A DNA stretch of 61,104 nt from Candidatus Roizmanbacteria bacterium RIFCSPHIGHO2_02_FULL_38_11 (GCA_001788015.1 MFZO01000047.1:1-61104); one strand, 5' to 3'. Shown: positions 36,607 to 61,084, counted from the stretch's first letter. Notes: generated by a model not told the origin, from the sequence alone. Numbers and translations: made by a program.

Positions 36607-37682
36607 AAGATTACTTCCTTTACTCGTTTTTTAAAAACCTCATAATTAAAGTTATCTTGCACGTATTGTTTTGCTGATTTTCTAACTCGAGTTTGGAGGG
36701 AGAGGTTTGGAACAGTGAAGAGAAGCTTTTTGATTAATTCTTCTTGAGTATTAAAGAGAAAACCAGTTTTTCCATCTGTAATAATCTCTTTTGGTCCGCC
36801 GGCGTTAAAGCAGAATGTCAGACAGCCGCTTGCCATAGCTTCCAGAGGCGCAATTCCCAAGTGTTCTACTTGTTCCGAATCTTTATTTTCGTCCACTCCG
36901 TAACCAGTCATATGTATATAAATTAATGATTTACGATAAAGACTCAATAATTCGTCATAAGAAACATTTGATTTGAGAAATATATAGGGGTTATTTTTGA
37001 CTTCAGTTTTGAGTTTTGAAAAATATGTTTTATCCTCCTCTTTTAGTCCACCTGCAATAATTAGTTGAAAATTATTGAACAGAGGATTAACCTGTTTTAA
37101 ATTATTGAACAGATTAATAAGAATAGACTGTTTTTTAGAGTGAAGATGACTATAAAATCGGCCGATAGATAAAATGATATTTTCCTTTTTCAAGTTATTT
37201 ACTTTTAGATCAATGAAATCTTTATTAATGCACGGGTATATTACATCCGAATTAATTGCCCATTTTTTCAGCAGGCTTTTAGTAAAAATGGAGTTGGTGA
37301 TAAAACGATAGTTGGAAGTTTTTAATTTATTGAATAAAGAGTTTTTGTAGAGTTTTTTGTCCGGTACCATGCAGAAAACAAAATTTTTCTTAGCTGAAGA
37401 AAAAAAATAACTACCGTCAGTAACGTAAAAGAAGATATCAAAATCTCTTAGGGTAATCATTTTATTGATCGCATTCTGTTTAACAAAAATATTGGGTAAA
37501 AACTTCAATTTGTTAACAAATTGAAGTCGAAAGCGGTTTTCGATTTGGGCCTGCAGATTTTTATCCCAGAAAACATTGATTTCGTAACCTTCGTCTTCCA
37601 GAACCTTAAGAATTGAGAGTATATGTTTTTCACCGCCGCCCAAAATGTCAAGATAAGGATCGTAGAGTGCGGCTCTTTTCAT
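36603..37682 (-). CDS. GT4 family glycosyltransferase
   Basis: GGGEKHILSILKVLEDEGY, LSIGRFY, EHLGIAPLEAMASGCLTFCFNAGGPKEII; start MKRAALYDPYLDI at 37682 preferred. Confidence 0.88.
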   Translation of the reverse strand: MKRAALYDPYLDILGGGEKHILSILKVLEDEGYEINVFWDKNLQAQIENRFRLQFVNKLKFLPNIFVKQNAINKMITLRDFDIFFYVTDGSYFFSSAKKNFVFCMVPDKKLYKNSLFNKLKTSNYRFITNSIFTKSLLKKWAINSDVIYPCINKDFIDLKVNNLKKENIILSIGRFYSHLHSKKQSILINLFNNLKQVNPLFNNFQLIIAGGLKEEDKTYFSKLKTEVKNNPYIFLKSNVSYDELLSLYRKSLIYIHMTGYGVDENKDSEQVEHLGIAPLEAMASGCLTFCFNAGGPKEIITDGKTGFLFNTQEELIKKLLFTVPNLSLQTRVRKSAKQYVQDNFNYEVFKKRVKEVIL

Positions 37683-38505
37683 ATAAATAAATATAAGTGA
37701 TTGTTTTGGAAAATGCTTGATAGATTGACTCAATTATACCAATATTGCCGTCCAAAAAGCCTAAACTTCTGAAGAGCCTTCTATATAATTCTCCCAGAAA
37801 TTTTCTAAAAAAAGTTGAGGTTCTGACTTCTTTTTTGCCTTCGAAGAGAAGAGTCGATTCAATATCTTCAAAAATAATTGTTTTTTCGACCATAGACTCA
37901 AGATCGCCGTGAAAATAATGAGTGATTGGATTTTGCAAATAACCAGTTTCCCCAGTAATGATAGGTGTGGAATGGATCTCTTTCGACCAGGACTTAAAAT
38001 ATTTTTTATTGATAAGCCTAATCTGATAGTCGGGCCACCATCCACCATGTTTTAACCACTTTAAGTTACCGAAGATGTTTTTGCGAGGAATTTTATAATA
38101 TGTTTTAACCGACTCGGTTCTCCCGTCGCTTCGCTCCTCCTCAACCGACCCGGTTTTTTTAATTAAATTTTTTATTTCTTTTGCTAATTCTGAAGTTATT
38201 CTTTCGTCCGCATCAAGTAAGAATACCCAGCCGGTACTTACTTTTTTAATTCCAAATTCTCTTGCCGGTTCAACATAGGTGGAGTAGGGAAAAAGATATA
38301 CGCTTGCTCCCACTTTTTTTGCTAAATCAACGGTTTTATCTGTACTTTTCATATCGATAATAACAACCTTTTTAGAGAGTAATTTCGCAGATTCAATACA
38401 AGAAAGAATATTTTTTTCTTCATTATGGGTATGAATTATAATAGAGATATTTAGATGCAGAATGGATTTATCAATCGAGTTCATATAGAAAAACGTTAAC
38501 TTCAT
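37648..38505 (-). CDS. GT2 family glycosyltransferase (WaaE-like) with repeat-derived insert
   Basis: ISIIIHTHNEEKNILSCIESAK, VFLLDADERIT, LKHGGWWPDYQIRLINKKY. Confidence 0.88.
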   Translation of the reverse strand: MKLTFFYMNSIDKSILHLNISIIIHTHNEEKNILSCIESAKLLSKKVVIIDMKSTDKTVDLAKKVGASVYLFPYSTYVEPAREFGIKKVSTGWVFLLDADERITSELAKEIKNLIKKTGSVEEERSDGRTESVKTYYKIPRKNIFGNLKWLKHGGWWPDYQIRLINKKYFKSWSKEIHSTPIITGETGYLQNPITHYFHGDLESMVEKTIIFEDIESTLLFEGKKEVRTSTFFRKFLGELYRRLFRSLGFLDGNIGIIESIYQAFSKTITYIYLYEKSRTLRSLS

Positions 38506-39967
38506 TGAATGACTTTTTGATAGTCAACCTTGCTTTACGTGGTATATTTTTGTCCAGCCACTCTGTTAGTCTTTCGTTATTTTCATCAGTTTCGATGATA
38601 TACCAACACCTTCTGTCGATCCAGTCACTTTTCGGAGTTTCAATTTTCTTTGACAGTTTATTGTAAAGAAAAAGATAGTTATAAGTATAAGGAATCACGG
38701 GCGGCGTATATACTTTCACGCAGTAATCTTGATGGTTTCCTTCACTCTTTTGAATATGATTTACTATCTCATGCTGAGATTTTAAGATTCCGGAGGACAT
38801 TGATCTTGAACGCACATCCTTAGAAAACATGAGTATAGAATTTCCCAAAAGCGCTACGACAAAACTCAGTTTAAGAAAAGAGAATAATATCGAGTGTACT
38901 TTAAACTGAATGGTAAAAAATACAGCCATGATCAGAAGAAAAACATACTGTATTCCTTCAAAGTAGTTGCCCCAAAAAAAATTTTCTTTATATAAAACTG
39001 AAAAAAAGAAAAGAAAACTCAAAAGCGGAATAAGAAAATTAAGTAAAGAGTCATATTTTTTTACCTTATTTTCGAGCACCGCTATAAGAAAGACTAAAAA
39101 TAGGAGGGTAAAAATTATTAATATTGCGTCATTTGCAAATAGACTTTTGTAGTAACCGAAAAACAAATTTACTCTATCCTGTAAAACTTCGGCATAGGAA
39201 TTGACATTTTGGGTTGTTCCCTGAAGCAGATTCTGGAAAAAAATCCTGGTCTGGGAAAAGTTATTTTTCAGTTCAAAAAAAAGCCGCGGAATAAAAGGTA
39301 TGGCTAGTCCGGCAAAGAATATAAGCAAGTTTCTGACGTTCATGAATGTCTGTCTTAAACTCTCAAGTAGAAATATCAGCAAGATGTAAGACGGTAGAAG
39401 AAAGAATCCAAAGGCAAGCTCGAATTCGGTTATTAAACCAGCAAATAAGCCAGCGAGAAAAACAAGAAGGGCGATTTTTTTGTGATTTCTATTAACCAGA
39501 AAAAAGTTAATCAGAAGAAATAGAAGAAGCGTTGGTAGAACCATTATATTGTTGCCTACAAATATCGATGTAAAGATAAAATATGGAGACGTAGCTATAA
39601 GGAGAGTTACCATCAAAGATGCCAAAAAGCCAAAATATTTATAGATAAAATACATGAGCAAGATAAAAGAAACAAGGTGAAGGAAAAAATTGAAGTGATA
39701 AAATCCGATCGGCGCTCCCCCAAATAAAATGAACGGAATTACCAATATATAATAATACCAAGCTCCATGAAAAAGTCCTTGTATGCCCGTTGTCGGACCG
39801 ATAAAGGTTGGATTTTTATCCAGAATTATTTCTGCAGCTTTCAAAAAGTCTCTCCCTTGATCGTAGGTGTAGCCGACAGTTTGAAAATAGAGTGGTTTTA
39901 ATCTAAAATAGCAGAAAAGAAAAATGACAAAAATAAAAAGCGCTGCCGCGATAATTTTTTTGAGCAT
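38471..39967 (-). CDS. GT-C/GT39-like membrane glycosyltransferase
   Basis: GYTYDQGRDFLKAAEIILDKNPTFIGPTTGIQGLFHGAWYY; multi-TM. Confidence 0.78.
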   Translation of the reverse strand: MLKKIIAAALFIFVIFLFCYFRLKPLYFQTVGYTYDQGRDFLKAAEIILDKNPTFIGPTTGIQGLFHGAWYYYILVIPFILFGGAPIGFYHFNFFLHLVSFILLMYFIYKYFGFLASLMVTLLIATSPYFIFTSIFVGNNIMVLPTLLLFLLINFFLVNRNHKKIALLVFLAGLFAGLITEFELAFGFFLLPSYILLIFLLESLRQTFMNVRNLLIFFAGLAIPFIPRLFFELKNNFSQTRIFFQNLLQGTTQNVNSYAEVLQDRVNLFFGYYKSLFANDAILIIFTLLFLVFLIAVLENKVKKYDSLLNFLIPLLSFLFFFSVLYKENFFWGNYFEGIQYVFLLIMAVFFTIQFKVHSILFSFLKLSFVVALLGNSILMFSKDVRSRSMSSGILKSQHEIVNHIQKSEGNHQDYCVKVYTPPVIPYTYNYLFLYNKLSKKIETPKSDWIDRRCWYIIETDENNERLTEWLDKNIPRKARLTIKKSFNEVNVFLYELD

Positions 39968-41411: not shown

Positions 41412-41417
41412 AAAAAC

Positions 41418-41535
41418 TGTCATTCCCGCGAAAGCCAGGTTACAGTACTGTACCTGGCGAAAGCGGGAATCCAGGAAATTATATAGATTCCCGATTAGAA
41501 CCTGTCCTCGACCTGATCGAGGATCGGGAATGACA
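41418..41535. repeat. Palindromic element family A with nested GCCAGGTTACAGTACTGTACCTGGC
   Basis: TGTCATTCCCGCGAAAGC...GGGAATGACA; inner palindrome 41434-41458. Confidence 0.9.
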
Positions 41536-41537
41536 CA

Positions 41538-42731
41538 ATGATAATATTATTCTTATATTTTATTCCTCTTTTTTCACTTTCCGTTTATTCCTTCTCTCTT
41601 ATCGATCCAAATATTACTTTTTTCCAAACGAAATGGTGGGAAATTTTTAGGGATAAGATGGTCTATTTTGGATACTATAGAAGAGAAATGTCATGGATCA
41701 TATATCTTGCAATCGTTATTTTACTTTTTATTTCTCACTATTTTTTCCTGAAAAGATATAAGCAATTTAATCCCGTTAAACTTGCAATTATTATCGGCAC
41801 AATACTTTTGTTCTCCTATCCATTTCTTTCACACGATTTTTTCAATTATATGTTTGATGCTAAAGTTGTTACGGTTTATTATAAAAACCCTTACTTTTAC
41901 AAAGCTCTTGATTTTCCCAAAGATCCCTGGCTTAGATTTATGCACTGGACTCATCGAACCTATCCGTACGGACCACTTTTTCTTTTGATTACAATCATTC
42001 CATCATTTTTAAGTTTTGGAAAATTTGCCTTGAGTTTTTTATTCTTTAAATCAACTTTTATTATTTTTTATATTCTGGCAGTTTTTTTCCTCAATAAATT
42101 AAATAAAAGGTATGCTATGATTTTCGCCACTAATCCTTTAATTATTATCGAGGGATTGGTAAATTCCCATAACGATTTGATAGGAGTATCACTTGGGTTA
42201 ATCGGAGTATTTTATCTACTTTCCCCCTCTCGTCATTCCGACCCCGCCTCGACGGGGGAGGAATCTATCCCGCCTTTGGCGGGAGTAAGATCACGCTTCG
42301 CTAGATTCTTCGGTCGCTTACGCTTCCTCAGAATGACACGAGATGAACTTATTACAAGATTAATATTTTTTCTCTCGGCGGGGATTAAGTATATTACGTT
42401 TCCACTTTTGTTCTTAAGTCGTGATAAGAAAAAAATGAATCAATTCATTTTTATAAGCATAATTGGCGCTTTGGTTTATTTATCATTCAAGTCAGAAATC
42501 CAGCCTTGGTATTTTCTTAATCTATTTATCTTTCTGCCTTTTTATGAGCAACTGGTTAATAGACTAAACATTTTTTTCTTCGGGCTTCTTGTTTCTTATC
42601 ATCCATATATAAGATTAGGAGGATGGGATAGTTTAGAGAAAATCAATATTAAGCATTGGGTAATAGGAGTTTTTTTAATCATCAACATAGTCTATTTGCT
42701 TTTTTCCCGTAAGAAATTCTCTTTAAAATAG
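41538..42731 (+). CDS. Multi-TM glycosyltransferase (GT-C/mannosyltransferase-like) with repeat-derived insert
   Basis: FSYPFLSHDFFNYMFDAKVVTVYYKNPY; multi-TM. Confidence 0.75.
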   Translation: MIILFLYFIPLFSLSVYSFSLIDPNITFFQTKWWEIFRDKMVYFGYYRREMSWIIYLAIVILLFISHYFFLKRYKQFNPVKLAIIIGTILLFSYPFLSHDFFNYMFDAKVVTVYYKNPYFYKALDFPKDPWLRFMHWTHRTYPYGPLFLLITIIPSFLSFGKFALSFLFFKSTFIIFYILAVFFLNKLNKRYAMIFATNPLIIIEGLVNSHNDLIGVSLGLIGVFYLLSPSRHSDPASTGEESIPPLAGVRSRFARFFGRLRFLRMTRDELITRLIFFLSAGIKYITFPLLFLSRDKKKMNQFIFISIIGALVYLSFKSEIQPWYFLNLFIFLPFYEQLVNRLNIFFFGLLVSYHPYIRLGGWDSLEKINIKHWVIGVFLIINIVYLLFSRKKFSLK

Positions 42732-44137
42732 TTAATAAATAAAATAAAGAAAAAACCTATAAGCAGCAGCGTCAAAGAGTTGATTACAAACGATGAAGAA
42801 AGGAGTCGTTGAAGAAAGGGGAATGGGGGAGACCACCAGTTGTGATACGCATTGAGGAAATTAAATAGAGAAATAAATAGATACGAAATTAATAGAAATT
42901 TATTGTTGTAAGTTGCGATCAGTAGAAATGGTAAGGTAAGGATTAAGTGTCTTTCGTGCATTTTAGTGAGAAAAATAAAAGAGGTAAAAGGTATAAGAAA
43001 CCCTATATAAAAAATGTTTTGTATATTGTTATTCCCGTGAAGACGGGAATCCAGTATTTTTCTGGATCCCTGCTTTCGCCACGTCAGACGTGGCTTTCGC
43101 AGGGATGACATTAAAACATAAAGAGTGATTAAAGTAATTATTCCTGTGATAAAGTATCCCCATATTTCATAAGAAATATTTAAGATAAATTTAGAAGACG
43201 CTAGAGTTGTTCGTGAGCCGTTTAAAAGATACCAAAAATTGAAGGCATGATTAGTGGTGAATGGCAATCCGGAAACCAGAATAATTTTATTCAAGTAAGT
43301 CGTTAGTGGAAAAAGGATAAGATTCCCATTCCGATAAAATGGAAGAAAAAAGAGCCAGAAAATAAAGGAAGAAATGAGTATCATTTTAATAAAAATCCGC
43401 ACTCTGTCATTTCGAAGGAGCGAAGCGACTGAGAAATCTAGTGAAACGTAATTACGCTGCGCTAGATTTCTCGCTTCGCTCGAAATGACAAAGTAAATTA
43501 ATAAAAAAAGCGGAATGAATATAGCGACAGTTTGCTTAGACAAAAGTCCAAGTGTGAAAGTAATTACAGAAGTTAGATATTTTTTCTGATAAATAAGAGT
43601 ATAAAATGACGTTAAGAGGAAGAAGAGCGGAGTAGAATCAGTCTGACCCCAATGCGCGCTGTTATAGAAATAAGCAGGATTGAAAAGAACTAGTGACGTA
43701 GCGATGAGAGGCCAAGTGGATTTCTTTTTTCCGACAATTTTCTTAGCAAAAAGATACGTTATATAAGCAATTCCGATATCAGATAAAATTGCTGGAAGCT
43801 TAAGCAAATAAGGGTAGTAATCAAAATCTTTGAGAAAAAAGATAAGTTTGGAAGGAAAAACAGGTAGGTGAAGATTTAGAAACCAAGCAAATTGGTAGAT
43901 CCAAACTTTAACTAAATAAAGAAAGGCGAAGAGAAATATTGCTATCGGAGGATAATTGGGCGAAATATGTCCATAAAGCTTATAAAAATCTGTAGCGTAT
44001 AATCCCTGAAGACCCTGTTTTACAGCGGTTTCTCCCCAGATCATGTGGTTTGTGACGTCGCCGCTATAGGTATGAAAGCTGATAAAAATTCTGAAAATGA
44101 GACCAAGTAGTAAAAAAATAAGAATTTTTTTATTCAT
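42692..44137 (-). CDS. Multi-TM GT-C glycosyltransferase with two repeat-derived inserts
   Basis: GDVTNHMIWGETAVKQGLQGLYATDFYKLYGHISPNYPPIAIFLF. Confidence 0.78.
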   Translation of the reverse strand: MNKKILIFLLLGLIFRIFISFHTYSGDVTNHMIWGETAVKQGLQGLYATDFYKLYGHISPNYPPIAIFLFAFLYLVKVWIYQFAWFLNLHLPVFPSKLIFFLKDFDYYPYLLKLPAILSDIGIAYITYLFAKKIVGKKKSTWPLIATSLVLFNPAYFYNSAHWGQTDSTPLFFLLTSFYTLIYQKKYLTSVITFTLGLLSKQTVAIFIPLFLLIYFVISSEARNLAQRNYVSLDFSVASLLRNDRVRIFIKMILISSFIFWLFFLPFYRNGNLILFPLTTYLNKIILVSGLPFTTNHAFNFWYLLNGSRTTLASSKFILNISYEIWGYFITGIITLITLYVLMSSLRKPRLTWRKQGSRKILDSRLHGNNNIQNIFYIGFLIPFTSFIFLTKMHERHLILTLPFLLIATYNNKFLLISYLFISLFNFLNAYHNWWSPPFPFLQRLLSSSFVINSLTLLLIGFFFILFINYFKENFLREKSK

Positions 44138-44144
44138 TTCGTAT

Positions 44145-44226
44145 TTGTCATTGCGAGCGATGATTTAAGAAGCGAAGCAATCTCAAAAAAAATGGAATTG
44201 CTTCGTCACTGCGTTCCTCGCAATGA
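44145..44226. repeat. Palindromic element family C (TGTCATTGCGAGCGATG...CCTCGCAATGACG)
   Basis: Inverted ends GTCATTGCGAG / CTCGCAATGAC. Confidence 0.8.
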
Positions 44227-45066: not shown

Positions 45067-45143
45067 TCCGTACTTGATACGGAATCCAGATTAAACTTGT
45101 CCTGATGAAAATCAGGATAGATTCCCGTTTTCACGGGAATGAC
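45061..45143. repeat. Palindromic element family A
   Basis: TGTCATTCCGTACTTGATACGGAATCC...TCCCGTTTTCACGGGAATGACA. Confidence 0.85.
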
Positions 45144-47010
45144 AATTAATTTCCTTATGAGATCTGTTTTTGATTATATCAGAAAGCATAAATTCTTACT
45201 TTTAATTGTCCTACCTGCCTTTTTACTCTACATGCTTATTATTTTTCCGAGTGGCACCTTCTTGTGTTTTAAGGATGCCTGCGGCATTAATTTCTGGGGG
45301 GTACACGGTCATGATGCTATTTGGCACCTGGCCATAGCAAATGTATCATTCAACAAATTTCCATTTACAGCCCCGACTTTTGCCGGAGAAAACCTATACG
45401 GATACAACTACCTTTTAGATTTTTTTATTTTTTTGCTCTCTAAAATAGGCATTCCAACTATACTTTCCTACTTTAAATTATTGCCAGCTATATGGTTCGT
45501 CGCTTTTACTACTCTTCTGATTATTCTTGGAAGAAAAATAAAAGACTCCTCCTTATTTGTAAGTTTATTTCTTTTTTTAAGTTATCTAGCTGGATCGTTC
45601 TCGTATCTATTGACTTTATTTCATGATAAAACAATTAATGGTTCTTCAACCTTGCTCCCACAGCCGATAATGCACATGATGTCAAATCTACCATACGCTT
45701 TTTCCTTACTTCCTTTTCTCGTGATTTTGATTTTAATGAAGGAAAAAGATCTGAATGTCAAAAATGTATTAATAATGGGAATTTGTGTTTTTTTAATTAT
45801 GGGATTGAAGTTTTACGGTGGAGTCATAAGTATTTTTATGGTGGTTATTTTTGTCATCCTGAATCTACTTCAGGATCTGCTATCTAAAAATCAGATTCCG
45901 AAACAAGTTCGGAATGACAATGTGAGGAAAAGTATAATTGGATTTATTGCGATTGCAGGATTTGTTGTTACGGGTTTATTTTTTTTCTATGATCCAATTA
46001 GATCGTTCAAAACTGGATCGGTTTTTGGGTTTGCTCCTTTTGCTTTAGTTCACCCAATCACAGAAACTCCAAATCAATTTTATCTGCGAGATTTAACCAA
46101 TGCGAGATATTACATTTTAGCACAGGGAAGAATAGGGCCAAGGTTCATCTGGATAGAATTTGTAAACCTGACTCTGTTTTTATTTTTTTATCTTGGGACG
46201 AGAATTTTCGGATTATTTTACATTGGGATAATATTAACTAAAGCCACTGTGTCATTCCTGCGAAAGCCAAGTCTGACTTGGCGAAAGCAGGAATCCAGAA
46301 AAATAACTGGATCCCCGATCAGGTCGGGGATGACATTACAAAATAATAAACGAGACAAATTCGATATAGCTGTATGTTTCTCAATTTTATTTTCAATCTT
46401 ATTGACAGTAACTTTAGTACAAAAAGCAGAGTGGTGGAACACAATTCAATTCTTCTTTTATGCGATTTTTCTCTTAACAATTTATCTATCGAAGTTGGTC
46501 TACACTTTGACAAATACAAGGAAAATAATTTTGATTATTCCAGCGACTATGATATTGTTATTGTCAATTCCGACTTCCATAGATTTAGTCAGACTTTTTG
46601 CGGTAGCGCCCGGGGCGGCATATCTTTCTGTCGACGAGATGAAGGCGCTTGAATTTCTAAAAAAGCAACCGGAAGGAATAATTTTGACTCCTCTATATAA
46701 CAAGGAGTGGAAAAACTATCAAAAGCCAAATCAGTTGTATACTTATGAGGATACGGCCTATATTTCGGCATTTTCAGGCAAGCAGACTTACTTTGCCAAT
46801 GTTTTACAGCTTCGGTTAACAGGGGCGCCATATGAAAAAAGGTTTGCGAGGTTAAAAAACATGGATTGTTCTATTCTTGGTGAGGTTGATTATATTTATG
46901 ATATCAGGAGGCTTTTAGATTCTGAAAAAATTGTCGTAAAGTGTAAACCTAAAAATGTAAGGAAAATATTCGAGAATAAATCAATAAATATCTACTCAAG
47001 AATAAAATAA
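45139..47010 (+). CDS. Multi-TM membrane protein (GT-C-like) with two repeat-derived inserts
   Basis: GVHGHDAIWHLAIANVSFNKFPFTAPTFAGENLYGYNYLLDFFIF; multi-TM. Confidence 0.75.
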   Translation: MTINFLMRSVFDYIRKHKFLLLIVLPAFLLYMLIIFPSGTFLCFKDACGINFWGVHGHDAIWHLAIANVSFNKFPFTAPTFAGENLYGYNYLLDFFIFLLSKIGIPTILSYFKLLPAIWFVAFTTLLIILGRKIKDSSLFVSLFLFLSYLAGSFSYLLTLFHDKTINGSSTLLPQPIMHMMSNLPYAFSLLPFLVILILMKEKDLNVKNVLIMGICVFLIMGLKFYGGVISIFMVVIFVILNLLQDLLSKNQIPKQVRNDNVRKSIIGFIAIAGFVVTGLFFFYDPIRSFKTGSVFGFAPFALVHPITETPNQFYLRDLTNARYYILAQGRIGPRFIWIEFVNLTLFLFFYLGTRIFGLFYIGIILTKATVSFLRKPSLTWRKQESRKITGSPIRSGMTLQNNKRDKFDIAVCFSILFSILLTVTLVQKAEWWNTIQFFFYAIFLLTIYLSKLVYTLTNTRKIILIIPATMILLLSIPTSIDLVRLFAVAPGAAYLSVDEMKALEFLKKQPEGIILTPLYNKEWKNYQKPNQLYTYEDTAYISAFSGKQTYFANVLQLRLTGAPYEKRFARLKNMDCSILGEVDYIYDIRRLLDSEKIVVKCKPKNVRKIFENKSINIYSRIK

Positions 47011-48644: not shown

Positions 48645-48649
48645 GAATT

Positions 48650-48713
48650 GTCATTCCCGCGGAGGCGGGAATCCAGAAAATTATATAGATTCCCGATTAG
48701 ATCGGGAATGACA
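48650..48713. repeat. Palindromic element family A (64 bp, simplest copy)
   Basis: TGTCATTCCCGCGGAGGCGGGAATCCAG...AGATTCCCGATTAGATCGGGAATGACA. Confidence 0.9.
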
Positions 48714-49628: not shown

Positions 49629-50816
49629 TTTTTAGTCAATATAAATTTTAATTCTTCTATCAGGTCAATTTTAAACATAAACCGCAGTATTATAAAGTAA
49701 ATTAAAGCAGAAATTAAAACAGTCAGAATGAGCAAGGGATAGGTTATCACAATAGAATTAATTATAAATAACGTTATTCCTCCCATTACTGCTGTTGCGA
49801 TTAAAGGTTTATAAACCGAATGTAAAAATCTGAAATAAACTTCCTTTTTAGCTATATATAAAACGACTGCGAACGTAAGTGAGAGAATGAGTTGATTAAT
49901 ATCTAGGTATTATTCCAATGAATCGATTCATCATAATCGCCAGTCCAGCCAACGTTGGAGCAAGCAATAAAGTTTGATAGTTAAGTAGTTTTTCGATGAG
50001 TCTAGCTATTTTTTCTTTATCGTTTTGTATTCTTGAGATAACTGGAAATAATACACGGTTAATATTATCCATAATAATTCTAATCGGAGATTCTGCCCAT
50101 TTTTTTGCCCAACCTATATAACCTAATCCTTCAAAACCTAAAACTTTCCCTAAAAATAAAGTTATAAGATCGTCTTTGAATAATGCTAAAAAGGAGCTTG
50201 CTTGAAAAGGAATGCCAAAGGAAAGAAGTGTTTTCAAGCTTTTTCTTGATATGCCAAAGCCAGGTTTCCAAAAAGAAATTGAGTACATTGCTATTAACCC
50301 AATTACTGCTCTGGCTATAACCGCGTAGGTAAAACTCATAACGCCAAAATTTAATAATGCCAATGTTGTTACCAATAGATAAAAAACCGTATTTTCTATG
50401 ATCTGAACTCGGACGATTTTTTGAAATTGAATTTTTCTTTCCAGAAAGATCGAAGGAATAGTTTTGAGCGAAGAGATAAAAAAAGCCAATAAAAGTCCCC
50501 AAAAAAGATAAATTCCTTCAACCGGAAGGTCGTAAAACTTCCTAATAGATGAAGTTGCAAAAAAACCTATGACAATGAGCGTTAATATAAGTATTTGTTG
50601 AATGGTAAAAGTTGTCTTAATATCATCGTCTGTTATTTCTTTTTTTTGAATGAGGGAGGCGGCAAGTCCGATGTCAGAAAAATAATTAAGAAGAGAGATA
50701 ATAGATAAAACAGTAATGTACATACCGAATATTGTGGGTGTAAGAAGAATTGTAAGTATGAGATTAGCGATCAATCCCAAAAAAGCTGAATAACCGCTCT
50801 GGAAAAATAGACTCAT
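49625..50816 (-). pseudogene. Wzx/PST-type polysaccharide flippase, frame-broken and internally shortened
   Basis: N-terminal ORF to 49896 ends ...MMNRFIGIIPRY*; a frame just downstream encodes INQLILSLTFAVVLYIAKKEVYFRFLHSVYKPLIATAVMGG...LRFMFKIDLIEELKFILTKK*. Confidence 0.7.
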
Positions 50817-50840
50817 TATACTTGTTATAATCTGCTTATG
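50814..50840. promoter_or_regulatory. Divergent promoter with symmetric shared -10 (GTTATAATC / GATTATAAC)
   Basis: TATAAT(+) 50826-50831 six nt before ATG 50838; TATAAC(-) 50829-50824 seven nt before ATG at 50816. Confidence 0.55.
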
Positions 50841-52652
50841 CATAAGGCAAAATCAATAATAATTGATCTGATGCTTCTTTTTATTATAACAATTCCAGCT
50901 TTCATTCGGATTTTGAACAGCCAATATTTTTCAATGCATGACGATCAGCATATTGTTAGGTTATTTTTATTAGATCAAGGTTTAAGACAGGGATATCTCT
51001 ATCCGAGGTGGGTTGACGGACTTGGGTTCGGTTTCGGATATCCTCTGTATAATTTTTATCCTCCGCTTGTTTATTATGTTGCTGAAACGTTTCACCTAAT
51101 GGGATTTTCTTTGATCTGGGCCGTTAAGTTAACCTCTATCTTGGGATTTTATATTGGAGCTTTTGGAATATACTTACTTTTAAGAAAATTCACAAACAAA
51201 TTGTCGGCTTTTTTGAGCGCTGCTTTATTTACTTATTTTTTCTATCACGCGACATTGATCTACGTAAGAGGTGCCCTGGCAGAGTTTTTTAGTTTGGCAA
51301 TTCTTCCTTTTGTTTTTTTAACTTTAGATAATCTCCAAGAAAAACTAAATCCTAAACGATCGGTTCTATTTGGTGTTATTTTAGCCCTAATCGTTCTTAT
51401 ACATCCTTTGATTGCTTTGCCTACTTTTATCTTTGTTGGTTTTTTCTTTTTATTTTATCTGCTGAAATTAAGATTCAGATGGAAATTCATTAAGTTATTC
51501 ATACTAAGTTTAGGCGTGGGTCTTTCGTTATCTGCTTTTTTTTGGTTGCCTTCTTTATTGGAACGAAAATATACATTGGTAGATAGAATATTGATTTCCG
51601 AGTTAGCTAGTTATCGACTTCATTACATTTATCCCCAGCAATTTATCTACTCACCGTGGGGTTATGGTGGGTCGGGAGTAGGGCTGTCAGACGGAATGAC
51701 ATTTCAGTTAGGCAAAATCCATATTGGATTAGTTTTAGGATCAATTATTCTGTCTATTATTTATATAACAATAATGTCATTGCGAGTCCCGCCAAAGGCG
51801 GGACGTGGCAATCCCTTTTTGAGATCGCTTCACTTCGTTCGCGATGACAACTATATTCGGTATTTTTATTTCTTTATTTTTCTCTTGTTGTTCAGTTTGT
51901 TTATGACAACAGAATATTCTTCTTTTATCTGGGATAGAGTTAAATATCTCTGGTATCTACAGTTTCCCTGGCGGTTTTTAACATTTGTAAATATTTTTAT
52001 TTCAATTACAGGAGGTTATTTTATTTATTTTCTATTTAGATTGTTGCAACAGTCCATTACACCTGACAGGTGGAGAAGAGCTATGAGTCAATCTATAGTA
52101 GCTATAATAATTGCGTTTACAATTTTTACTTATCAAAAATACTTTAGACCGCAGACATACATCGTTACCAACGACAAAGAGAGAACTTCTTTCGAAGAGA
52201 TTTCATGGAGAATAAGCAGAACTTCTTATGAATTTGTGCCAAAAGATGTAAAAACCAAAAAGTCAGAATTAAGTACGACTCTACTTGCAATAGAAAAAAA
52301 AGATCTGCCAAAAAAGCCGTATGAAATTATTTCCGGTGAAGGAGAGGTGTCAATGCTTAAAAATAAATTTCAAGTGAAAGAGTTTTCCATTGATGCAAAA
52401 TCTCCATTAACTTTTAGGTTAAATACATATAATTTTCCCGGTTGGAAAGCGTATTTAAAAAATCAGCAAATAAAAATAAATGATAATAATGATTTTAAGC
52501 TGATAACAGTCAGTATTCCGACTGGAAATGATGTTCTTAAATTTGTTTTTCAGGATACAATTGTGAGAAAAATTGCTGATTTGTTATCGTTTGCTACTTT
52601 TTTTTTAGTCTTTTTGAGTTTATTTAGTCATCTCAAGTCATCCCCGACCTGA
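50838..52652 (+). CDS. Multi-TM membrane protein (PTPS-related-domain/GT-C-like) with repeat-derived insert and C-terminus
   Basis: MHDDQHIVRLFLLDQGLRQGYLYPRWVDGLGFGFGYPLYNFYPPLVYYVAE. Confidence 0.78.
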   Translation: MHKAKSIIIDLMLLFIITIPAFIRILNSQYFSMHDDQHIVRLFLLDQGLRQGYLYPRWVDGLGFGFGYPLYNFYPPLVYYVAETFHLMGFSLIWAVKLTSILGFYIGAFGIYLLLRKFTNKLSAFLSAALFTYFFYHATLIYVRGALAEFFSLAILPFVFLTLDNLQEKLNPKRSVLFGVILALIVLIHPLIALPTFIFVGFFFLFYLLKLRFRWKFIKLFILSLGVGLSLSAFFWLPSLLERKYTLVDRILISELASYRLHYIYPQQFIYSPWGYGGSGVGLSDGMTFQLGKIHIGLVLGSIILSIIYITIMSLRVPPKAGRGNPFLRSLHFVRDDNYIRYFYFFIFLLLFSLFMTTEYSSFIWDRVKYLWYLQFPWRFLTFVNIFISITGGYFIYFLFRLLQQSITPDRWRRAMSQSIVAIIIAFTIFTYQKYFRPQTYIVTNDKERTSFEEISWRISRTSYEFVPKDVKTKKSELSTTLLAIEKKDLPKKPYEIISGEGEVSMLKNKFQVKEFSIDAKSPLTFRLNTYNFPGWKAYLKNQQIKINDNNDFKLITVSIPTGNDVLKFVFQDTIVRKIADLLSFATFFLVFLSLFSHLKSSPT

Positions 52653-52757
52653 TCGGGGATCCAGTATGTTTTAGATTCCCGCTTTCGCCAGGTACAGTAC
52701 TGTAACCTGGCTTTCGCGGGAATGATAATATGGATCCTGAATCAAGTTCAGGATGAC
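52637..52757. repeat. Composite palindromic element with nested GCCAGGTACAGTACTGTAACCTGGC
   Basis: GTCATCCCCGACC...GGATGAC; inner 25-mer 52687-52711 is the exact reverse complement of 41434-41458. Confidence 0.9.
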
Positions 52758-52767
52758 GCAATAAGAA

Positions 52768-54282: not shown

Positions 54283-54298
54283 AGTTTAGCTTATTATA

Positions 54299-55936
54299 CT
54301 ATCGCTTAAACAGATATATTGAGTTAAAATTTTTTACTAGGTTAAACTGCTTATTTTCCGGATTTAAATCCAAATCGTTTGTTTGGATTGCTAAGCAATT
54401 GTTCTTAGAAATTGAAGTTAGGTTTTTTGCCAGAAGGGTTTTATCATAATAAAAGTCTACTTTTTTCCCAAAATAGTAAACGATTGAAGGATGGTCGCCC
54501 CATTGTTTGGTGGAAGTTATCGTAAGTCCTAATTTCTCAAGAGTTTTTGTTGCATCGCGAGTTTCTTTTCCAACCAGAATAGAAAGTGAATTGCAACGAT
54601 CTTTAGCAAATAACGCCAGACGATAATGATCTTCGGGTTTGGAATAGAAGGTTGTAAATAAGTTGGTTTTGACGAAGTTCTGGTAGAAAATGTAACTTAG
54701 AATTATTATTCCTATAATTGTCATTCCGTACTTGATACGGAATCTATTTAATAAACTACTGGATTCCCACTTTCGTGGGAATGACACAAAAGGTAATGGG
54801 TGTGACAAAAGGGTCAATGGATAGACAGAAAGAAAGGCTAACTGGGGGATGGCTGGATAAAGATACCAGAAGATTTTGGTTTTGGTGAGATTTAAGAAAA
54901 TGAACCAAGGGAATAAAAATAAAGAATATAAAATCCATACATAATTTTTACGCTTCGCTAGATTTCTCCCCTTCGAGATGCTCAGGGTCGAAATGACAGA
55001 GAGAGCATTATAAATGACAAAAACTAAACCCAATAATGAAATCCAAAAGAATATACCTAATTGTTGAATCATTAAATCGATATAATAAGTTCTCTGACCA
55101 AAATGAGACTCAATTGAAGCGGTGACTCTTCTAAAATGAGTTTCGATGATGTGTTGTTGCCAAAAATCTTTGCCGAAGAAGAAGAACATAACCAAATACC
55201 AAATTGATAAAATGGCCATTTGGCTAAATATTTTCACCAATGTTCGCTTGAAAAGAGATTTCTCGACTTCGCTACGCTTCGCTCGAAATGACAGAAGGGT
55301 GGTAAAAGTTTGGTATGAAAGGGTGATTAAAATAGGATAAAAACCAATTAGAGATTTTGTAAGAACTGCGATGGTGAGAAAAAATAAGCTTAGCCAAAAA
55401 TTTTGAACGAATAAAAGATACCCAAGCCATCCGATAAGAAGAAATACATCTAAGTTCAAAATTTGTGAACGCTGGAGAAAGATAGGAGTAAAAGCTATTA
55501 TTACTACAGTTAGAAAAGCCATAACTTTACCAACCTCCGAGGTTTTCCCGTCGCTCCGCTCCTCTTTAACCTCGGAGGTTACATTAACAGCTTTTAAATA
55601 GATAATGTAAATGAAAATTAAAGCAATAATAGACAAGAATAGTGAAATCAAACGAAGAGAAATTTCAGGTTGAATAAATGGAGTAAGCTTCATAATAATT
55701 CCAAAAAATAGAAAAGGAAATGGAGGCTTGTCGAGCCAGTAATTTCCTTGCCAGAGAGGAACTAAGGATTTATTTTCAATAGTTTCTTTTGAAACCTGTA
55801 CATTAATTGATTCATCCCAGTCATAAAAAGGGGTTGGGTGAGAAATTAGTTTAAAGCCAAGAGCAAAAAAATAAAAAGAAAGAAAAAAAATCAGTAGTAA
55901 ATGATCTTTAATTACATTTTTTAGCTTAATTCTCAT
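54299..55936 (-). CDS. GT39-family (ArnT-like) glycosyltransferase with four repeat-derived inserts
   Basis: FYDWDESINVQVSKETIENKSLVPLWQGNYWLDKPPFPFLFFGIIMKL. Confidence 0.9.
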   Translation of the reverse strand: MRIKLKNVIKDHLLLIFFLSFYFFALGFKLISHPTPFYDWDESINVQVSKETIENKSLVPLWQGNYWLDKPPFPFLFFGIIMKLTPFIQPEISLRLISLFLSIIALIFIYIIYLKAVNVTSEVKEERSDGKTSEVGKVMAFLTVVIIAFTPIFLQRSQILNLDVFLLIGWLGYLLFVQNFWLSLFFLTIAVLTKSLIGFYPILITLSYQTFTTLLSFRAKRSEVEKSLFKRTLVKIFSQMAILSIWYLVMFFFFGKDFWQQHIIETHFRRVTASIESHFGQRTYYIDLMIQQLGIFFWISLLGLVFVIYNALSVISTLSISKGRNLAKRKNYVWILYSLFLFPWFIFLNLTKTKIFWYLYPAIPQLAFLSVYPLTLLSHPLPFVSFPRKWESSSLLNRFRIKYGMTIIGIIILSYIFYQNFVKTNLFTTFYSKPEDHYRLALFAKDRCNSLSILVGKETRDATKTLEKLGLTITSTKQWGDHPSIVYYFGKKVDFYYDKTLLAKNLTSISKNNCLAIQTNDLDLNPENKQFNLVKNFNSIYLFKR

Positions 55937-55966
55937 TTAATTCACTTTTGTCATCCTGAATTTATT

Positions 55967-57169
55967 TCAGGATCTGATTCTGGACAAGCCAGAATGACGA
56001 AACAGATTCCGAAACAAGTTCGGAATGACACGTTCTAAAATTCTACCAAAGTAAACTGCAACAAGAATGTTAAGAGGCACAAAAAGTAGAAGCAAATATC
56101 GGGGATAAATGGGAGTAATGAAAAGGAAAAGATTATAAACGATTAAAAAACTTGTCAACAATACAGTCAAATCATCTTTTCTGGCTTTTTTATCTAGCAA
56201 TAATTTAAATGCGGATAAAAGTCCTAAGATAAAAACTACAGGCCAGAGTATTGACCAGTATTGATAGTGAATTATTGGATATCCATCGGTCCAATATCTC
56301 CAATTGTTAAAGAAGATAAGATGAAGATAACTACCAAGCAGTTTTGAAATCTCTATTTTCGAACTTTCATAAAAAACAAAAATATATTTCTGGACACCCA
56401 AAAAACCTCGGAAAGTTCCTCCCAATATGAAATATCCAATGTAAGTAAAAACATAGGTTGAAAGTGAGATTAGATTCAATACGGCTAGCTCAATAAATAT
56501 TTTTTTAATACCTGTTTTGCTAAAAAAGTAATAGGCAAGCAACATTATATTCATAATGATAAAACCTACTAAAAAAAATTTGGTTGAAATGAAATATCCC
56601 AGAGATAAACCAGCAGAAAATAAAAATAGTTTAAATCCAACTTTTTTATAGATGAGAAAAAAAATGATAAAAAGCAGAAAAAATAAAAGTTGATAAATAT
56701 CAAGCTGCGGAGCGTGAATAAGCTGATCGGTAAATGAAGTATTTACGACGGTTAAGAAAACTGCGATTGATAAGGCAAAATAAGACTTTGTCGAAAAATA
56801 AACAATATGAGATATAACAAAAAGAGACAGAAATGCTACGGCTAAAGACATTACTCTTTGGTTGTTAAATAATAGAATCGATAACCCAATTAAGTATTTG
56901 CCCAGATGGGCTGTTTCTGGATTAATAAGGATGGGATTTAAACCTTTGACGTATCTGTAGCCTACGTACGTAAATAAGTCTTCATCAGAGATTACATTTT
57001 TTGAATTAGGTACAACCCATTGGGATTGATTATATTTTTTTTCGTAGAGTTTAGGATCGAATTTTTCTAGATAAAGCTCTCTGTTTTGCAGGATTACAAA
57101 AAAGAGATATAAAAAAGAAAAAATTAACAAAATAGTCGGTAAAATCAAAGCGATTGTGTTTTTTCCCAT
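55967..57169 (-). CDS. Multi-TM glycosyltransferase-like protein, C-terminus derived from repeat
   Basis: DEDLFTYVGYRYVKGLNPILINPETAHLGKYLIGLSILLF; ends VIPNLFRNLFRHSGLSRIRS. Confidence 0.78.
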   Translation of the reverse strand: MGKNTIALILPTILLIFSFLYLFFVILQNRELYLEKFDPKLYEKKYNQSQWVVPNSKNVISDEDLFTYVGYRYVKGLNPILINPETAHLGKYLIGLSILLFNNQRVMSLAVAFLSLFVISHIVYFSTKSYFALSIAVFLTVVNTSFTDQLIHAPQLDIYQLLFFLLFIIFFLIYKKVGFKLFLFSAGLSLGYFISTKFFLVGFIIMNIMLLAYYFFSKTGIKKIFIELAVLNLISLSTYVFTYIGYFILGGTFRGFLGVQKYIFVFYESSKIEISKLLGSYLHLIFFNNWRYWTDGYPIIHYQYWSILWPVVFILGLLSAFKLLLDKKARKDDLTVLLTSFLIVYNLFLFITPIYPRYLLLLFVPLNILVAVYFGRILERVIPNLFRNLFRHSGLSRIRS

Positions 57170-58491
57170 AATTTTAAATTCAATATACGTTGAATTGTAC
57201 CGTTGAGTTCAAACGATTTATTAAAAACAAGTCTTTGATAAAGAAAATAAGTTCGTAAGTCATATAAAGATGATAACGCAAATAAAACTAGTAAAAAAAT
57301 AATAGCTCCAAATAACAGTATTTTTGATTTTTGTTCAGACTGTAAAAGATATGTCAAACCATTTCCGACAAAATATATCGAAGGGACAATCGCAGTATAT
57401 GTCCTTAAACTATTAGGATTTTCCATCGGGTAGGTAAATAACGCAGGCGTTAAACTTAAAATAAAATAAATGAAGAATAATTGATTATAAAAATTTTTGA
57501 GATGTAAAACAGTCACAAGAAATCCTAATAGAAAAAAAGCTCCGACTACGGGATTGAAGATTGGCTTGCCGGGATAATTATGCCTACCGTTGAGATCTCC
57601 TTCTAAATTAAACATAAGCGTTAACTTTGCAATATTATTACCAAAATAAGACAATTTCTGCTGAAAGTTTAACTCTCTATCGGTAAGAAAAAGTTGCTCC
57701 TTTATCCTTAGATCTTTGTGGGAGGTTAGGTAAATTAAAAGTGGTGAAGCAACCAATGAAACGGTTAGTAAAAAAATGATGGAACTTTTTTTGACCAATT
57801 TCTTTGAGGAGTAAAAGAAGAAAAATACGAGTGGCAAAAGAAAAAAAATTCTTCCCGGATAGTAGGAAAGTAAGGCTAGCCCGGAAAAGATACCAGAAAG
57901 AATTAAATAGATTATTGAGTGTTTTTTGTCATGCTGAACTAGTTTCAGCATCTGATTTTTAGATAGCAGATCCCGAAACAAGTTCGGGATGACATTGGAA
58001 ACCGTAAAAAATTTAAATAAAAAATAAATTGAAGTTAATTCGAGAAACATAAGGAATGTTGCCTCGAATGAAAAACGGGCAAAATTAAAATACCAGCGGG
58101 AAGAAGCAAGGATAAGCGATAGGAGAAAAGGAATTAAAGTAATCCGGAGAAAATTTTTAGGGAAATAGGTGATTTTGCTAAAAGCAATTCTTGATATTAA
58201 ATAAAAAATCAAAACGTTAGTTACGCCAAATAAGGCTGAGGGAAATCTTAAAGCAAAATTTGTCATACCAAAAGTTTTAAAAGAAGCAAGGATTAGATAG
58301 AAATATAAAGTCGAGTGTCCGGTTGCAAGTCGGCTATAAGGAGTATAGGGTTTATTATCGAGCGATAATGTTAATCTTGTAAATTCCACCTCATCCCAAG
58401 AGAGTTTTTTTGGAACTTGATTGAATTGGAAAAAAATGACGAAAGATGAAACCATTAATAAAATTGTTAGTTCTATTATTATTCTTTTCAT
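57145..58491 (-). CDS. GT39-family-like glycosyltransferase with repeat-derived insert
   Basis: KLSWDEVEFTRLTLSLDNKPYTPYSRLATGHSTLYFYLIL. Confidence 0.82.
   Translation of the reverse strand: MKRIIIELTILLMVSSFVIFFQFNQVPKKLSWDEVEFTRLTLSLDNKPYTPYSRLATGHSTLYFYLILASFKTFGMTNFALRFPSALFGVTNVLIFYLISRIAFSKITYFPKNFLRITLIPFLLSLILASSRWYFNFARFSFEATFLMFLELTSIYFLFKFFTVSNVIPNLFRDLLSKNQMLKLVQHDKKHSIIYLILSGIFSGLALLSYYPGRIFFLLPLVFFFFYSSKKLVKKSSIIFLLTVSLVASPLLIYLTSHKDLRIKEQLFLTDRELNFQQKLSYFGNNIAKLTLMFNLEGDLNGRHNYPGKPIFNPVVGAFFLLGFLVTVLHLKNFYNQLFFIYFILSLTPALFTYPMENPNSLRTYTAIVPSIYFVGNGLTYLLQSEQKSKILLFGAIIFLLVLFALSSLYDLRTYFLYQRLVFNKSFELNGTIQRILNLKLWEKTQSL
57928..57994. repeat. Palindromic element family B inside a CDS
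   Basis: Near-identical to 19037-19104. Confidence 0.9.
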
Positions 58492-58504
58492 TTTTTAATC
58501 TTCT

Positions 58505-58605
58505 TTCGTCATCCCGAGCACAGTCGAGGGATCTAGCCCTGCCGAAGGCAAGTCGTAATTACGCTTTCGCTGGATTCCTCGGTCGCTTCGCTCCCTCGGA
58601 ATGAC
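58505..58605. repeat. Palindromic element family C
   Basis: CGTCATCCCGAGCACAGTCGAGGGATCTAG...CGCTTCGCTCCCTCGGAATGACG. Confidence 0.8.
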
Positions 58606-58618
58606 GGGGGGGAGCGGA

Positions 58619-59362
58619 TTAATACTTATGAAGAAGGTCATAATATTTAATTTTAAAAATATCTATCAATGTCTCAAGGGAATCTCTGATAAAATTAACA
58701 TTTTTAGTCTCTACATGAAGCCAAGTAACTGGAACTTCTTTTATTCTGTAGCTAAGTTTAAGAGCTAAAAATAAAAACTCCAAATCAAAACCTGCAGTGA
58801 CAGATGAACCAACCGCCTTTCTTTTATCATGAAATACTTTCAGTTTATCTATTACTTTAAGCGCTGCATTTTTTTCAAATATTTTGAAGCCATTTTGTGT
58901 ATCTCTAATGCCTTTAAGACCAATAATAAGATCTCTGATTACGATGAAACCAATTGACATTATTTTTCTTAACATCGGAGCTCCTACTCGTTGACTTTTT
59001 CTTGAACCTATAACAATTGAATATCCTTCTTTGATTTCATCAATAAGTTTTTCTGTTTCTTCAATGGGTGTGGCGAGATCAATATCTGAGAACATGACGT
59101 AGTCGCTCTTTGCGAGTTTGATTCCTGTCATAATCGCGAAAGCTTTACCTTGATGATTATTTTCGATGAGTTTGAACTTTGAGAATTGCGGTAAATACTT
59201 TTGCTTTATAATTTGTTTTGAATGATCGTCTGATCCGTCGTCGACAATCAATACTTCAATGAACCGATCGTCATTTCTTGTGAAGTTGCCGATTTTATCC
59301 AATACACCTTTTTGGATATTGGCCTCTTCGTTGTAACAGGGAATAATCAGTGAGATACTCAT
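58619..59362 (-). CDS. GT2 family glycosyltransferase (dolichyl-phosphate glucosyltransferase-like)
   Basis: SLIIPCYNEEANIQKGV, VDDGSDDHS, MFSDIDLATPIEETEKLI, GIRDTQNGFKIFEKNAA. Confidence 0.92.
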   Translation of the reverse strand: MSISLIIPCYNEEANIQKGVLDKIGNFTRNDDRFIEVLIVDDGSDDHSKQIIKQKYLPQFSKFKLIENNHQGKAFAIMTGIKLAKSDYVMFSDIDLATPIEETEKLIDEIKEGYSIVIGSRKSQRVGAPMLRKIMSIGFIVIRDLIIGLKGIRDTQNGFKIFEKNAALKVIDKLKVFHDKRKAVGSSVTAGFDLEFLFLALKLSYRIKEVPVTWLHVETKNVNFIRDSLETLIDIFKIKYYDLLHKY

Positions 59363-59368
59363 TGTTTA

Positions 59369-59439
59369 TTGTCGTTCCCATGAAAATGGGAATCTATATA
59401 ATTGAGCATTCTGGATTCCCGCTTCCGCGGGAATGACAG
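59369..59439. repeat. Palindromic element family A
   Basis: TGTCGTTCCCATGAAAATGGGAATC...GGATTCCCGCTTCCGCGGGAATGACA. Confidence 0.85.
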
Positions 59440-59473
59440 AATAGATCTCGAAATAAATTCGGGATAATCCTCA

Positions 59474-61084
59474 TTAGTTGTTAATGTGGATTAACTTATA
59501 TATTTTTATTCCTTCCACAGTCCATATTTTATCAATTTTAGCCTTTTTGAAGGCCGCTATTTGCCATTGAGGATTTCCCAATACCTGACAATCCTTTTCA
59601 AAACAGAGCACATATAATTCTTTTGGTTCTTCAAGGGTATCGGCGGGAAGCGGTCTTTTACCATTTAACTCCAAAAAGTATCTGATGTGGCCGTCGGTCT
59701 CAACATATGGTAGGGCAATAGTTTGAAAAGGAATCAGAGGATTCTCTTTAAGCATGCTAAGAGCGATTGTTTCTGCTTTTTTAATCTGATTGTTTCCAGT
59801 TTTTAAAAAAAGATAGTTGAGACTTTTAAAGTTAAGATAGATATAAGTTAAAACCGTTAAAGATAGCACAAAAAATTGCACTGTTTTATTTTTAACAATA
59901 TTGGTTATGATCCAAGATAAAACAAGAAAAAAACTTAAATAAATTGAACTGTAATAATGAGCATTCCGGCTGCTGTTAAAAAAACTAAAAACTACTATAA
60001 AAAAAATAAAGTTAAAAGCGTGAAGATATATAAATAAGAATTTTGGAGAAAGATGTTTTTTGACGATTAAAAAAATGATAGCTATCGTTAAGAAAAGAGC
60101 TATGTAATGATTCATATTGAGCTGTAGAACATGTAAGTAGAAGGATCGATTTATTTCTAAAAATCTGCTAAAAAGTTGTTCATGGTCGGTTGGATTTCCC
60201 TCGGTAAAAAAATTTATGAAATTTCGTGTATTTAAAAAATTATGACGGAGATCGAAGATAATAAGAGGAAGGGAGAAAAAAAGAAAGGAGATAAGAGAAA
60301 TAAATATTTTCTCGATGTCATTTCGACCAAACGAAGCGCGTGGAGAAATCTCTTTTACATCAGCGTGTAAGAGATTCCTCGACTTCGCTCGGAATGACAA
60401 ATAGGATAGTACAATTGGTAAAAACAATAATAAGGCTAAATGGTGTAGTTGGATAGAAAAGGAAAGGAATGATCCGAACAAAACTGCATGTAGCTTGTTC
60501 TTTGTTGTAATTGTTTTATAAAAAAAATAAAGTGTGAAGAAGGAAAAAATTGGGAGCAAGTTTGGATTCCACGAGAAGCGGGAAAACTGGATATTGACAG
60601 CGGAGAAAGTTAGAAAGATGGTAAAGATTAAAGCGACTAGATAATTCGTTTCCTTTCTGATTACTACATAAGAAGCGATTAGTCCTAAAATGCTGAATAC
60701 AGCGACTCCAACTGCCGGTCCAACGGGTTTGAAATTAAAAAATAAGAGAAACGGAGCGATTAAATAGTAGTAAAAAGGACCTAAGAAAATTTGCCCAAGC
60801 GAACTTGGGGCTCCAATCGCCGGAAAATGTTCGAAGGTGATAATTCTTTTTATTATGATTGCGTCTCTTCCTTGATCTCCCAAAAACATGGCGAAGTCTT
60901 CAAATTTATAGAATCGAAGAAAAACAGCGAACAAAATGATTAGAATTGGTAAAATAACTCTAATGCGCAAGGACATATTAATTCCATATTTTACCGTAAT
61001 CGGGATTGTTTTGATAAGTACACTCATTTTTTGGGCACCGTTTTTGTTTAGGGCTACTTCATGGTTAGGCTTATCTATTCCCAA
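59474..61084 (-). CDS. GT39-family-like glycosyltransferase with repeat-derived insert; start uncertain near window edge
   Basis: FAMFLGDQGRDAIIIKRIITFEHFPAIGAPSSLGQIFLGPFYYYL. Confidence 0.82.
   Translation of the reverse strand: MGIDKPNHEVALNKNGAQKMSVLIKTIPITVKYGINMSLRIRVILPILIILFAVFLRFYKFEDFAMFLGDQGRDAIIIKRIITFEHFPAIGAPSSLGQIFLGPFYYYLIAPFLLFFNFKPVGPAVGVAVFSILGLIASYVVIRKETNYLVALIFTIFLTFSAVNIQFSRFSWNPNLLPIFSFFTLYFFYKTITTKNKLHAVLFGSFLSFSIQLHHLALLLFLPIVLSYLSFRAKSRNLLHADVKEISPRASFGRNDIEKIFISLISFLFFSLPLIIFDLRHNFLNTRNFINFFTEGNPTDHEQLFSRFLEINRSFYLHVLQLNMNHYIALFLTIAIIFLIVKKHLSPKFLFIYLHAFNFIFFIVVFSFFNSSRNAHYYSSIYLSFFLVLSWIITNIVKNKTVQFFVLSLTVLTYIYLNFKSLNYLFLKTGNNQIKKAETIALSMLKENPLIPFQTIALPYVETDGHIRYFLELNGKRPLPADTLEEPKELYVLCFEKDCQVLGNPQWQIAAFKKAKIDKIWTVEGIKIYKLIHINN

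Follow-up and report, generated by a model that had tools for sequence, protein, structure and literature searches.

In-frame palindromes in a glycan-enzyme gene cluster

The 61,104 bp stretch analysed here, which we call the window, is the whole of contig C47 (positions 1-61104) of a 1.238 Mb Candidatus Roizmanbacteria MAG in 51 contigs, and it raises the question of how palindromes with TGTCAT...ATGACA ends come to lie inside open reading frames without closing them. Judged by its RpoB protein, which is 92% identical to that of one Candidatus Roizmanbacteria genome and 88–91% identical to those of others, the source organism is a roizmanbacterium (Microgenomates, Patescibacteria). The initial annotation reported eleven such palindromes between 37 and 61 kb, and every one is an open, in-frame TGTC-tagged unit (a TGTC REP; see below); nine are two-ended (here called dimers) and two, 54949-54999 and 55254-55293, are single halves. 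They are spread over seven multi-TM ORFs, along with one palindrome of another family. The hosts had been described as glycosyltransferase genes, which fits those with a glycosyltransferase Pfam match and the ORF at 54299-55936, modelled as an ArnT-like GT-C protein, but not all of the hosts have such a match.

The ORF at 41538-42731 (plus strand, 397 aa) contains a 108 bp TGTC/CGTC-tagged dimer at 42231-42338, whose 36 aa are missing from the relatives' orthologues. ORF 42692-44137 (minus strand, 481 aa) has two dimers, one of 84 bp at 43027-43110, where relative G001 has a different REP-like segment in the same loop, and one of 86 bp at 43405-43490, where congener G002 has a different left half at the same site. 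ORF 45139-47010 (plus strand, 623 aa) also has two; the 68 bp dimer at 45852-45919 is present, and still in frame, in G002 and is absent from G004, G006, G014, G017 and G022, and the 86 bp dimer at 46250-46335 is absent from 8/8 aligned orthologues. ORF 50838-52652 (plus strand, 604 aa, PTPS_related, PF10131) has a 75 bp dimer at 51775-51849; G005 and G001 have different insert types in the same loop, and G002, G004 and G006 have none. ORF 54299-55936 (minus strand, 545 aa) had been said to carry four copies and does carry four inserts, of which the fourth belongs to a different palindrome family: a 68 bp dimer at 54719-54786 (a different REP at the same junction in G005, none in G002), a single half with flank at 54949-54999 (the half itself at 54962-54998; another REP type in G001 and G005), a single half at 55254-55293, and a 49 bp unit of the form AACCTCCGAGGTT..AACCTCGGAGGTT at 55532-55580, which encodes the in-frame peptide TSEVKEERSDGKTSEV. 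The last two hosts, both on the minus strand, are the PMT_2-like ORF 57145-58491 (448 aa; 68 bp dimer at 57927-57994) and ORF 59474-61084 (536 aa, weak PMT_2 match; 84 bp dimer at 60316-60399, with other REP types in the same loop in G001 and G004 and none in G002). Two intergenic dimers lie at 41418-41535 and 48649-48713, and a further dimer at 55949-56030, also found in G002, overlaps the 3' end of ORF 55967-57169. In the same region, the polysaccharide flippase ORF at 49896-50843 is 315 aa long versus 474–485 aa in its orthologues in G001, G004, G005 and G006, and 289 aa in G002.

Abundance and anatomy of the TGTC-tagged units

Units were counted over the whole genome, all contigs, and not over the window alone. 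Pairs of TGTCAT and ATGACA spaced 30–160 bp apart occur 146 times, versus 4 for the reversed motif, and there are 333 exact [TC]GTCAT halves. Under a strict definition of a half (TGTC, then ATNNN paired with its own complement, then C[CT]) there are 295, versus 1–15 for seven permuted motifs; these controls exclude a chance origin. A looser scan that allowed one mismatch in the tag was discarded as noisy (533 versus 89–216 in controls). When resemblance to at least three other units is demanded, 197 robust units remain, 129 of them intergenic, 44 within 38 genes and 24 at gene edges.

Among the 295 strict halves, 132 have a stem of 8–9 bp and a loop of 3–5 nt (83 have 8 bp and 5 nt, 39 have 8 bp and 4 nt, and 10 have 9 bp and 3 nt), where the AT at the stem base is partly imposed by the search; the 24- and 25-nt halves have 8 bp stems with 4–5 nt loops. 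The inner stem pairs show compensatory changes, a feature that the search did not impose. The remaining halves are of longer types, 34–60 nt long, with an outer stem of 5 or 8 bp and long or nested-palindrome loops. Three-nucleotide tails are CTC (81), CTA (71), CTG (59) and CCA (51), their C[CT] start being search-imposed. Neighbouring halves are head-to-head in 95 cases, head-to-tail in 8 and tail-to-tail in 2, and the terminal inverted repeats of the units are the 6 bp TGTCAT/ATGACA ends. Of 240 Patescibacteria genomes, 69 contain the commonest half, TGTCATTCCCGCGNNNGCGGGAATC, with at most two mismatches; the control gave 0.

Some smaller observations belong here. The nested palindromes CACGTCAGACGTG, CCCGATTNAATCGGG and CCTGCCTGCCGGCAGGCAGG recur in the loops of different TGTC REPs, for example at window positions 41418-41535 and 46250-46335 and at C44:9534-9616. 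A third paired palindrome, CACCCTCAGGGTG, is present in this genome and in G002 (C16:5772-5829, C19:6770-6812 and L291:2177-2220).

Comparison with orthologous proteins

The same residues at the same place in distant orthologues would mark an insert as ancestral protein sequence, and they were looked for; in alignments that span congeners and remoter relatives, the orthologues are closed up at the insert sites or hold another REP type, which rules out the ancestral reading. Since orthologues lack the insert or have a different REP in the same loop, the alignments indicate that the TGTC inserts are recurrent insertions. At one junction of ORF 54299-55936 the unit of this genome is TTCCCAC/TTCCGTA, whereas that of G005 is TTCTGAACG and G002 has nothing; ORFs 50838 and 59474 show a similar pattern between species. 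Loop lengths at the insert sites differ between species, which masks exact target duplication, and the closest orthologues are too diverged to offer empty sites.

Divergence of the host genes is concentrated at third codon positions, and they show a purifying codon pattern. The comparison with G002 covered about 400 kb. Window positions 33961-35580 stand out, with a third-position divergence from G002 of 0.28 versus 0.48–0.60 in the other compared genes (several of these versus other congeners); this low value suggests a possible recent exchange.

Reading frame inside genes

Units are far sparser in coding than in non-coding DNA (0.040 versus 0.95 per kb). Both flanks could be mapped to one relative's ORF for 25 units, and 22 of these are in frame and stop-free (19 when three weak chance units are set aside); the other three lie between called genes or antisense to them. 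Intragenic units have on average 1.9 of 6 readings open, versus 1.1 for intergenic ones. The length of 21 of the 32 intragenic dimers would by itself shift the frame (it is not divisible by three), so the frame must be held by gain or loss at the target site together with selection, and not by the length of the unit. All three reading phases are used (18/12/9), so no particular peptide seems to be selected, and passive tolerance is the better reading of this usage.

Genes and loops that accept inserts

The initial annotation saw no copy inside rpoB, rpoC, fusA, dnaG or rpoD, and indeed no gene in the first 37.6 kb of the window contains a unit; it supposed that tolerance is restricted to multi-TM surface enzymes. 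The rest of the genome contradicts that restriction: 20 of the 38 host genes lack any TM segment, and many housekeeping genes outside the window carry a unit. Hosts with Pfam/NCBIfam matches include valine--tRNA ligase (ValRS), DNA topoisomerase I (TopA), TsaD, YchF, a Mur ligase, an IPP transferase (MiaA-type), an RsmH/MraW-like methylase, an EpmA/LysS-like synthetase, glutamate dehydrogenase, a VKOR-DHO_dh fusion, FemAB and soluble glycosyltransferases. The fusion, C51:5257-6873, joins a VKOR domain and a dihydroorotate dehydrogenase domain in one ORF, with a REP dimer inside. Multi-TM genes are nevertheless over-represented (17 of 44 intragenic units versus 13.5% expected, p=3e-5), an excess that is not significant outside the window cluster (7 of 34 versus 12%, p=0.18). 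The glycan-enzyme cluster of the window is a strong insertion hotspot: it makes up 2% of the coding DNA and holds 10 of the 44 robust intragenic units (p=3e-8). Its multi-TM enrichment could reflect more than tolerance.

The AlphaFold2 model of ORF 54299-55936 has a confident GT-C fold (pLDDT 87, pTM 0.90) and matches ArnT (PDB 5ezm, TM 0.60). Its four inserts are low-confidence loops near residues 121-130, 214-227, 312-325 and 381-400. Extracytoplasmic loops had been proposed as the sites, and the model argues otherwise: when helices are counted from both ends, all four insert loops alternate with those that hold the invariant catalytic motifs (DWDE, QRSQ..D, KSL.GFYP, RVTASIESH and TKTKIFWY), and by this parity they appear to be cytoplasmic, opposite the conserved catalytic face. 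Hydropathy alone agrees with a cytoplasmic placement for most host ORFs, not all. In TsaD, alignment to a solved TsaD (8iey) places the insert between positions equivalent to 221 and 230. Of 14 aligned relatives 13 lack it (G005 has an extra segment of its own there), and in a well-folded AlphaFold2 model of the host protein it is the stretch of lowest confidence (251-259). The PurA-like ORF C46:18608-19549 has 313 aa versus about 425–430 aa in PurA models, with a REP at aa 227-250, and this gene may be broken near the unit.

Relationship to known palindromic elements

By their anatomy, the units are to be classed as CGTC/TGTC-tagged REPs, the superfamily described by Di Nocera et al. 2013 (PMC3733652), whose members include Neisseria dRS3 and the RPE-4 and RPE-6 elements of R. 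conorii; that paper found no dedicated transposase for CGTC REPs and extended in-frame intragenic copies to other REP-bearing bacteria. The likeness comprises the CGTC/TGTC tag, AT at the stem base, an 8–9 bp stem with a 4–5 nt loop, a predominance of head-to-head dimers, intragenic copies and, as judged here from the RAYT-like genes, the lack of association with a transposase. The present units differ in that Patescibacteria are not among the five host phyla listed there, in their large share of longer types, and in tails that are mostly CTN and not CCA.

Rickettsia palindromic elements (RPEs) had been named as a precedent, and the analogy is apt: both are in-frame mobile palindromes in unrelated ORFs. 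In what PMC10969869 relates of RPEs (Ogata 2000/2002), these too are inserted in frame in many unrelated genes, metabolic enzymes included, and the title of Ogata et al. (2002) calls protein-coding palindromes "unique but recurrent" in Rickettsia. By the same account RPEs are about 150 bp long with a conserved peptide, unlike the TGTC units (about 24–140 bp, three phases), and are more closely resembled by the second family described below, which has one phase and a conserved peptide. The REPINs and GTAG REPs of RAYT systems (PMC3116915, PMC2817692) are likewise inverted pairs of short hairpins with an unpaired 5' tag, but that tag is GTAG and not TGTC, and the RAYT-like genes here are flanked by other palindromes. 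The enterobacterial RU and ERIC repeats, as far as PMC2759123 describes them, are also small mobile repeats within genes, but their units are unrelated to TGTC REPs. Terminal inverted repeats are shared with MITEs. Our literature search found no paper pairing Patescibacteria with "repetitive extragenic palindromic", which is not proof of novelty; in-frame palindromes are known from Rickettsia and, as far as found, not from this bacterial branch.

Origin and maintenance of the in-frame units

We think it highly likely that the TGTC REPs are non-autonomous mobile units whose in-gene copies survive in frame in permissive loops, with peptides that are tolerated. Short REPs, mostly head-to-head dimers, would spread through the genome, probably as single-stranded hairpins handled by an enzyme. 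A copy that entered a gene would be lost unless the net change kept the frame, the reading was stop-free and the site was a permissive loop; surviving copies would be translated in vivo as 8–40 extra, mostly disordered residues, which we take to be tolerated by-products. The glycan-enzyme cluster would be a hotspot because inter-helix loops on the non-catalytic side accept extra residues; in sister species, other REP types have entered the same loops time and again.

The peptides might instead have been selected, giving glycan enzymes new and useful loop functions. The excess in multi-TM genes (17 of 44 versus 13.5% expected), the crowding of 10 of 44 units into 2% of the coding DNA, the repeated strikes on the same loops in sister species and the one insert kept across the G000–G002 split would all suit selection, but equivalent loops hold several REP types, three phases and unrelated peptides, orthologues manage without inserts, and unrelated housekeeping enzymes carry them too, so we regard selection as quite unlikely. 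That the hairpins are RNA or DNA signals (for attenuation, mRNA stability or supercoiling) and their coding potential incidental is improbable; well-paired stems with compensatory changes and an intergenic majority are what a signal would give, but an Rfam scan of the window found no family at gathering score, presence at the same site is patchy between species, and a signal alone leaves the in-frame copies unexplained.

We consider it very improbable that the hosts are merely decayed genes (pseudogenes) or products of misassembly, left open by accident. The genome is a MAG in 51 contigs, and at least one possible truncation lies beside a unit (the PurA-like ORF above); against this, the third-position concentration of divergence holds for the hosts, the same picture of inserts recurs in congeners that were assembled separately, and units sit in normally essential genes such as those for TsaD and ValRS.

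On the preferred reading, of tolerated mobile REPs, protein-coding palindromes appear here in a Patescibacterium, at some 200 units in 1.24 Mb, and have entered the same loops of orthologous enzymes independently and more than once. They would form a natural insertion scan in which loops of the near-essential TsaD, ValRS, TyrRS and UvrA accept 15–40 foreign residues, and recurrent peptides such as VILNLFQDL.., SFRAKSRN.. and CHPELVSGS.. should be annotated as REP translations and not as domains.

A second palindrome family and the RAYT-like genes

The unit at 55532-55580 belongs to a second (AACC) family of the form AACCTCCGAGGTT-core-AACCTCGGAGGTT, with AACCCCCGGGGTT in two of its ten intact copies. 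The other copies are at C2:30387, C18:4284, C31:12515, C31:23083, C35:1564, C36:8572, C37:1197, C44:46931 and C48:14709; all ten are in ORFs and in one codon phase, nine in one orientation, and their lengths (43, 49 in five copies, 52, 55, 58 and 73 bp) are all 1 mod 3. The peptides are of the type T(SE/PG)V..ERSDGKT(SE/PG)V (TSEV...TSEV), and the hosts are TyrRS, YbeY, Era, UvrA, YidC, a ClpB-like ATPase, a Xer-type recombinase and three glycosyltransferases. The segment is missing from solved TyrRS and UvrA, and the alignment of Era to the solved protein is broken there. Location in genes is expected where 89% of the genome is called coding; a single phase and spacing in multiples of three are not, and most copies could also be read through in other ways. 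There is also a decayed copy between genes, and the exact pattern was found in 0 of 379 other genomes searched. We tentatively suggest, as a possibility somewhat short of even, that this is a truly protein-coding palindrome, mobile under coding constraint and perhaps mobilised by the RAYT-like transposases of this genome, whose flanking palindromes resemble it.

The genome has six Y1_Tnp matches, five of RAYT size, which match NF047646 at E values of 1e-18 to 1e-9, under its curated cut-off. The flanks of the five RAYT-like genes contain unrelated palindromes and no TGTC REPs, the closest exact TGTC half to a RAYT being about 350 bp away within another ORF; a RAYT as mobiliser of the TGTC units is not supported, and the search of these genes yielded no mobilising transposase for them. 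Three of them (C23:2862-3509, C50:4612-5262 and C42:11363-12043) have palindromes of the form ACCTGNCAGGT on both sides, and these three are possible movers of the second family.
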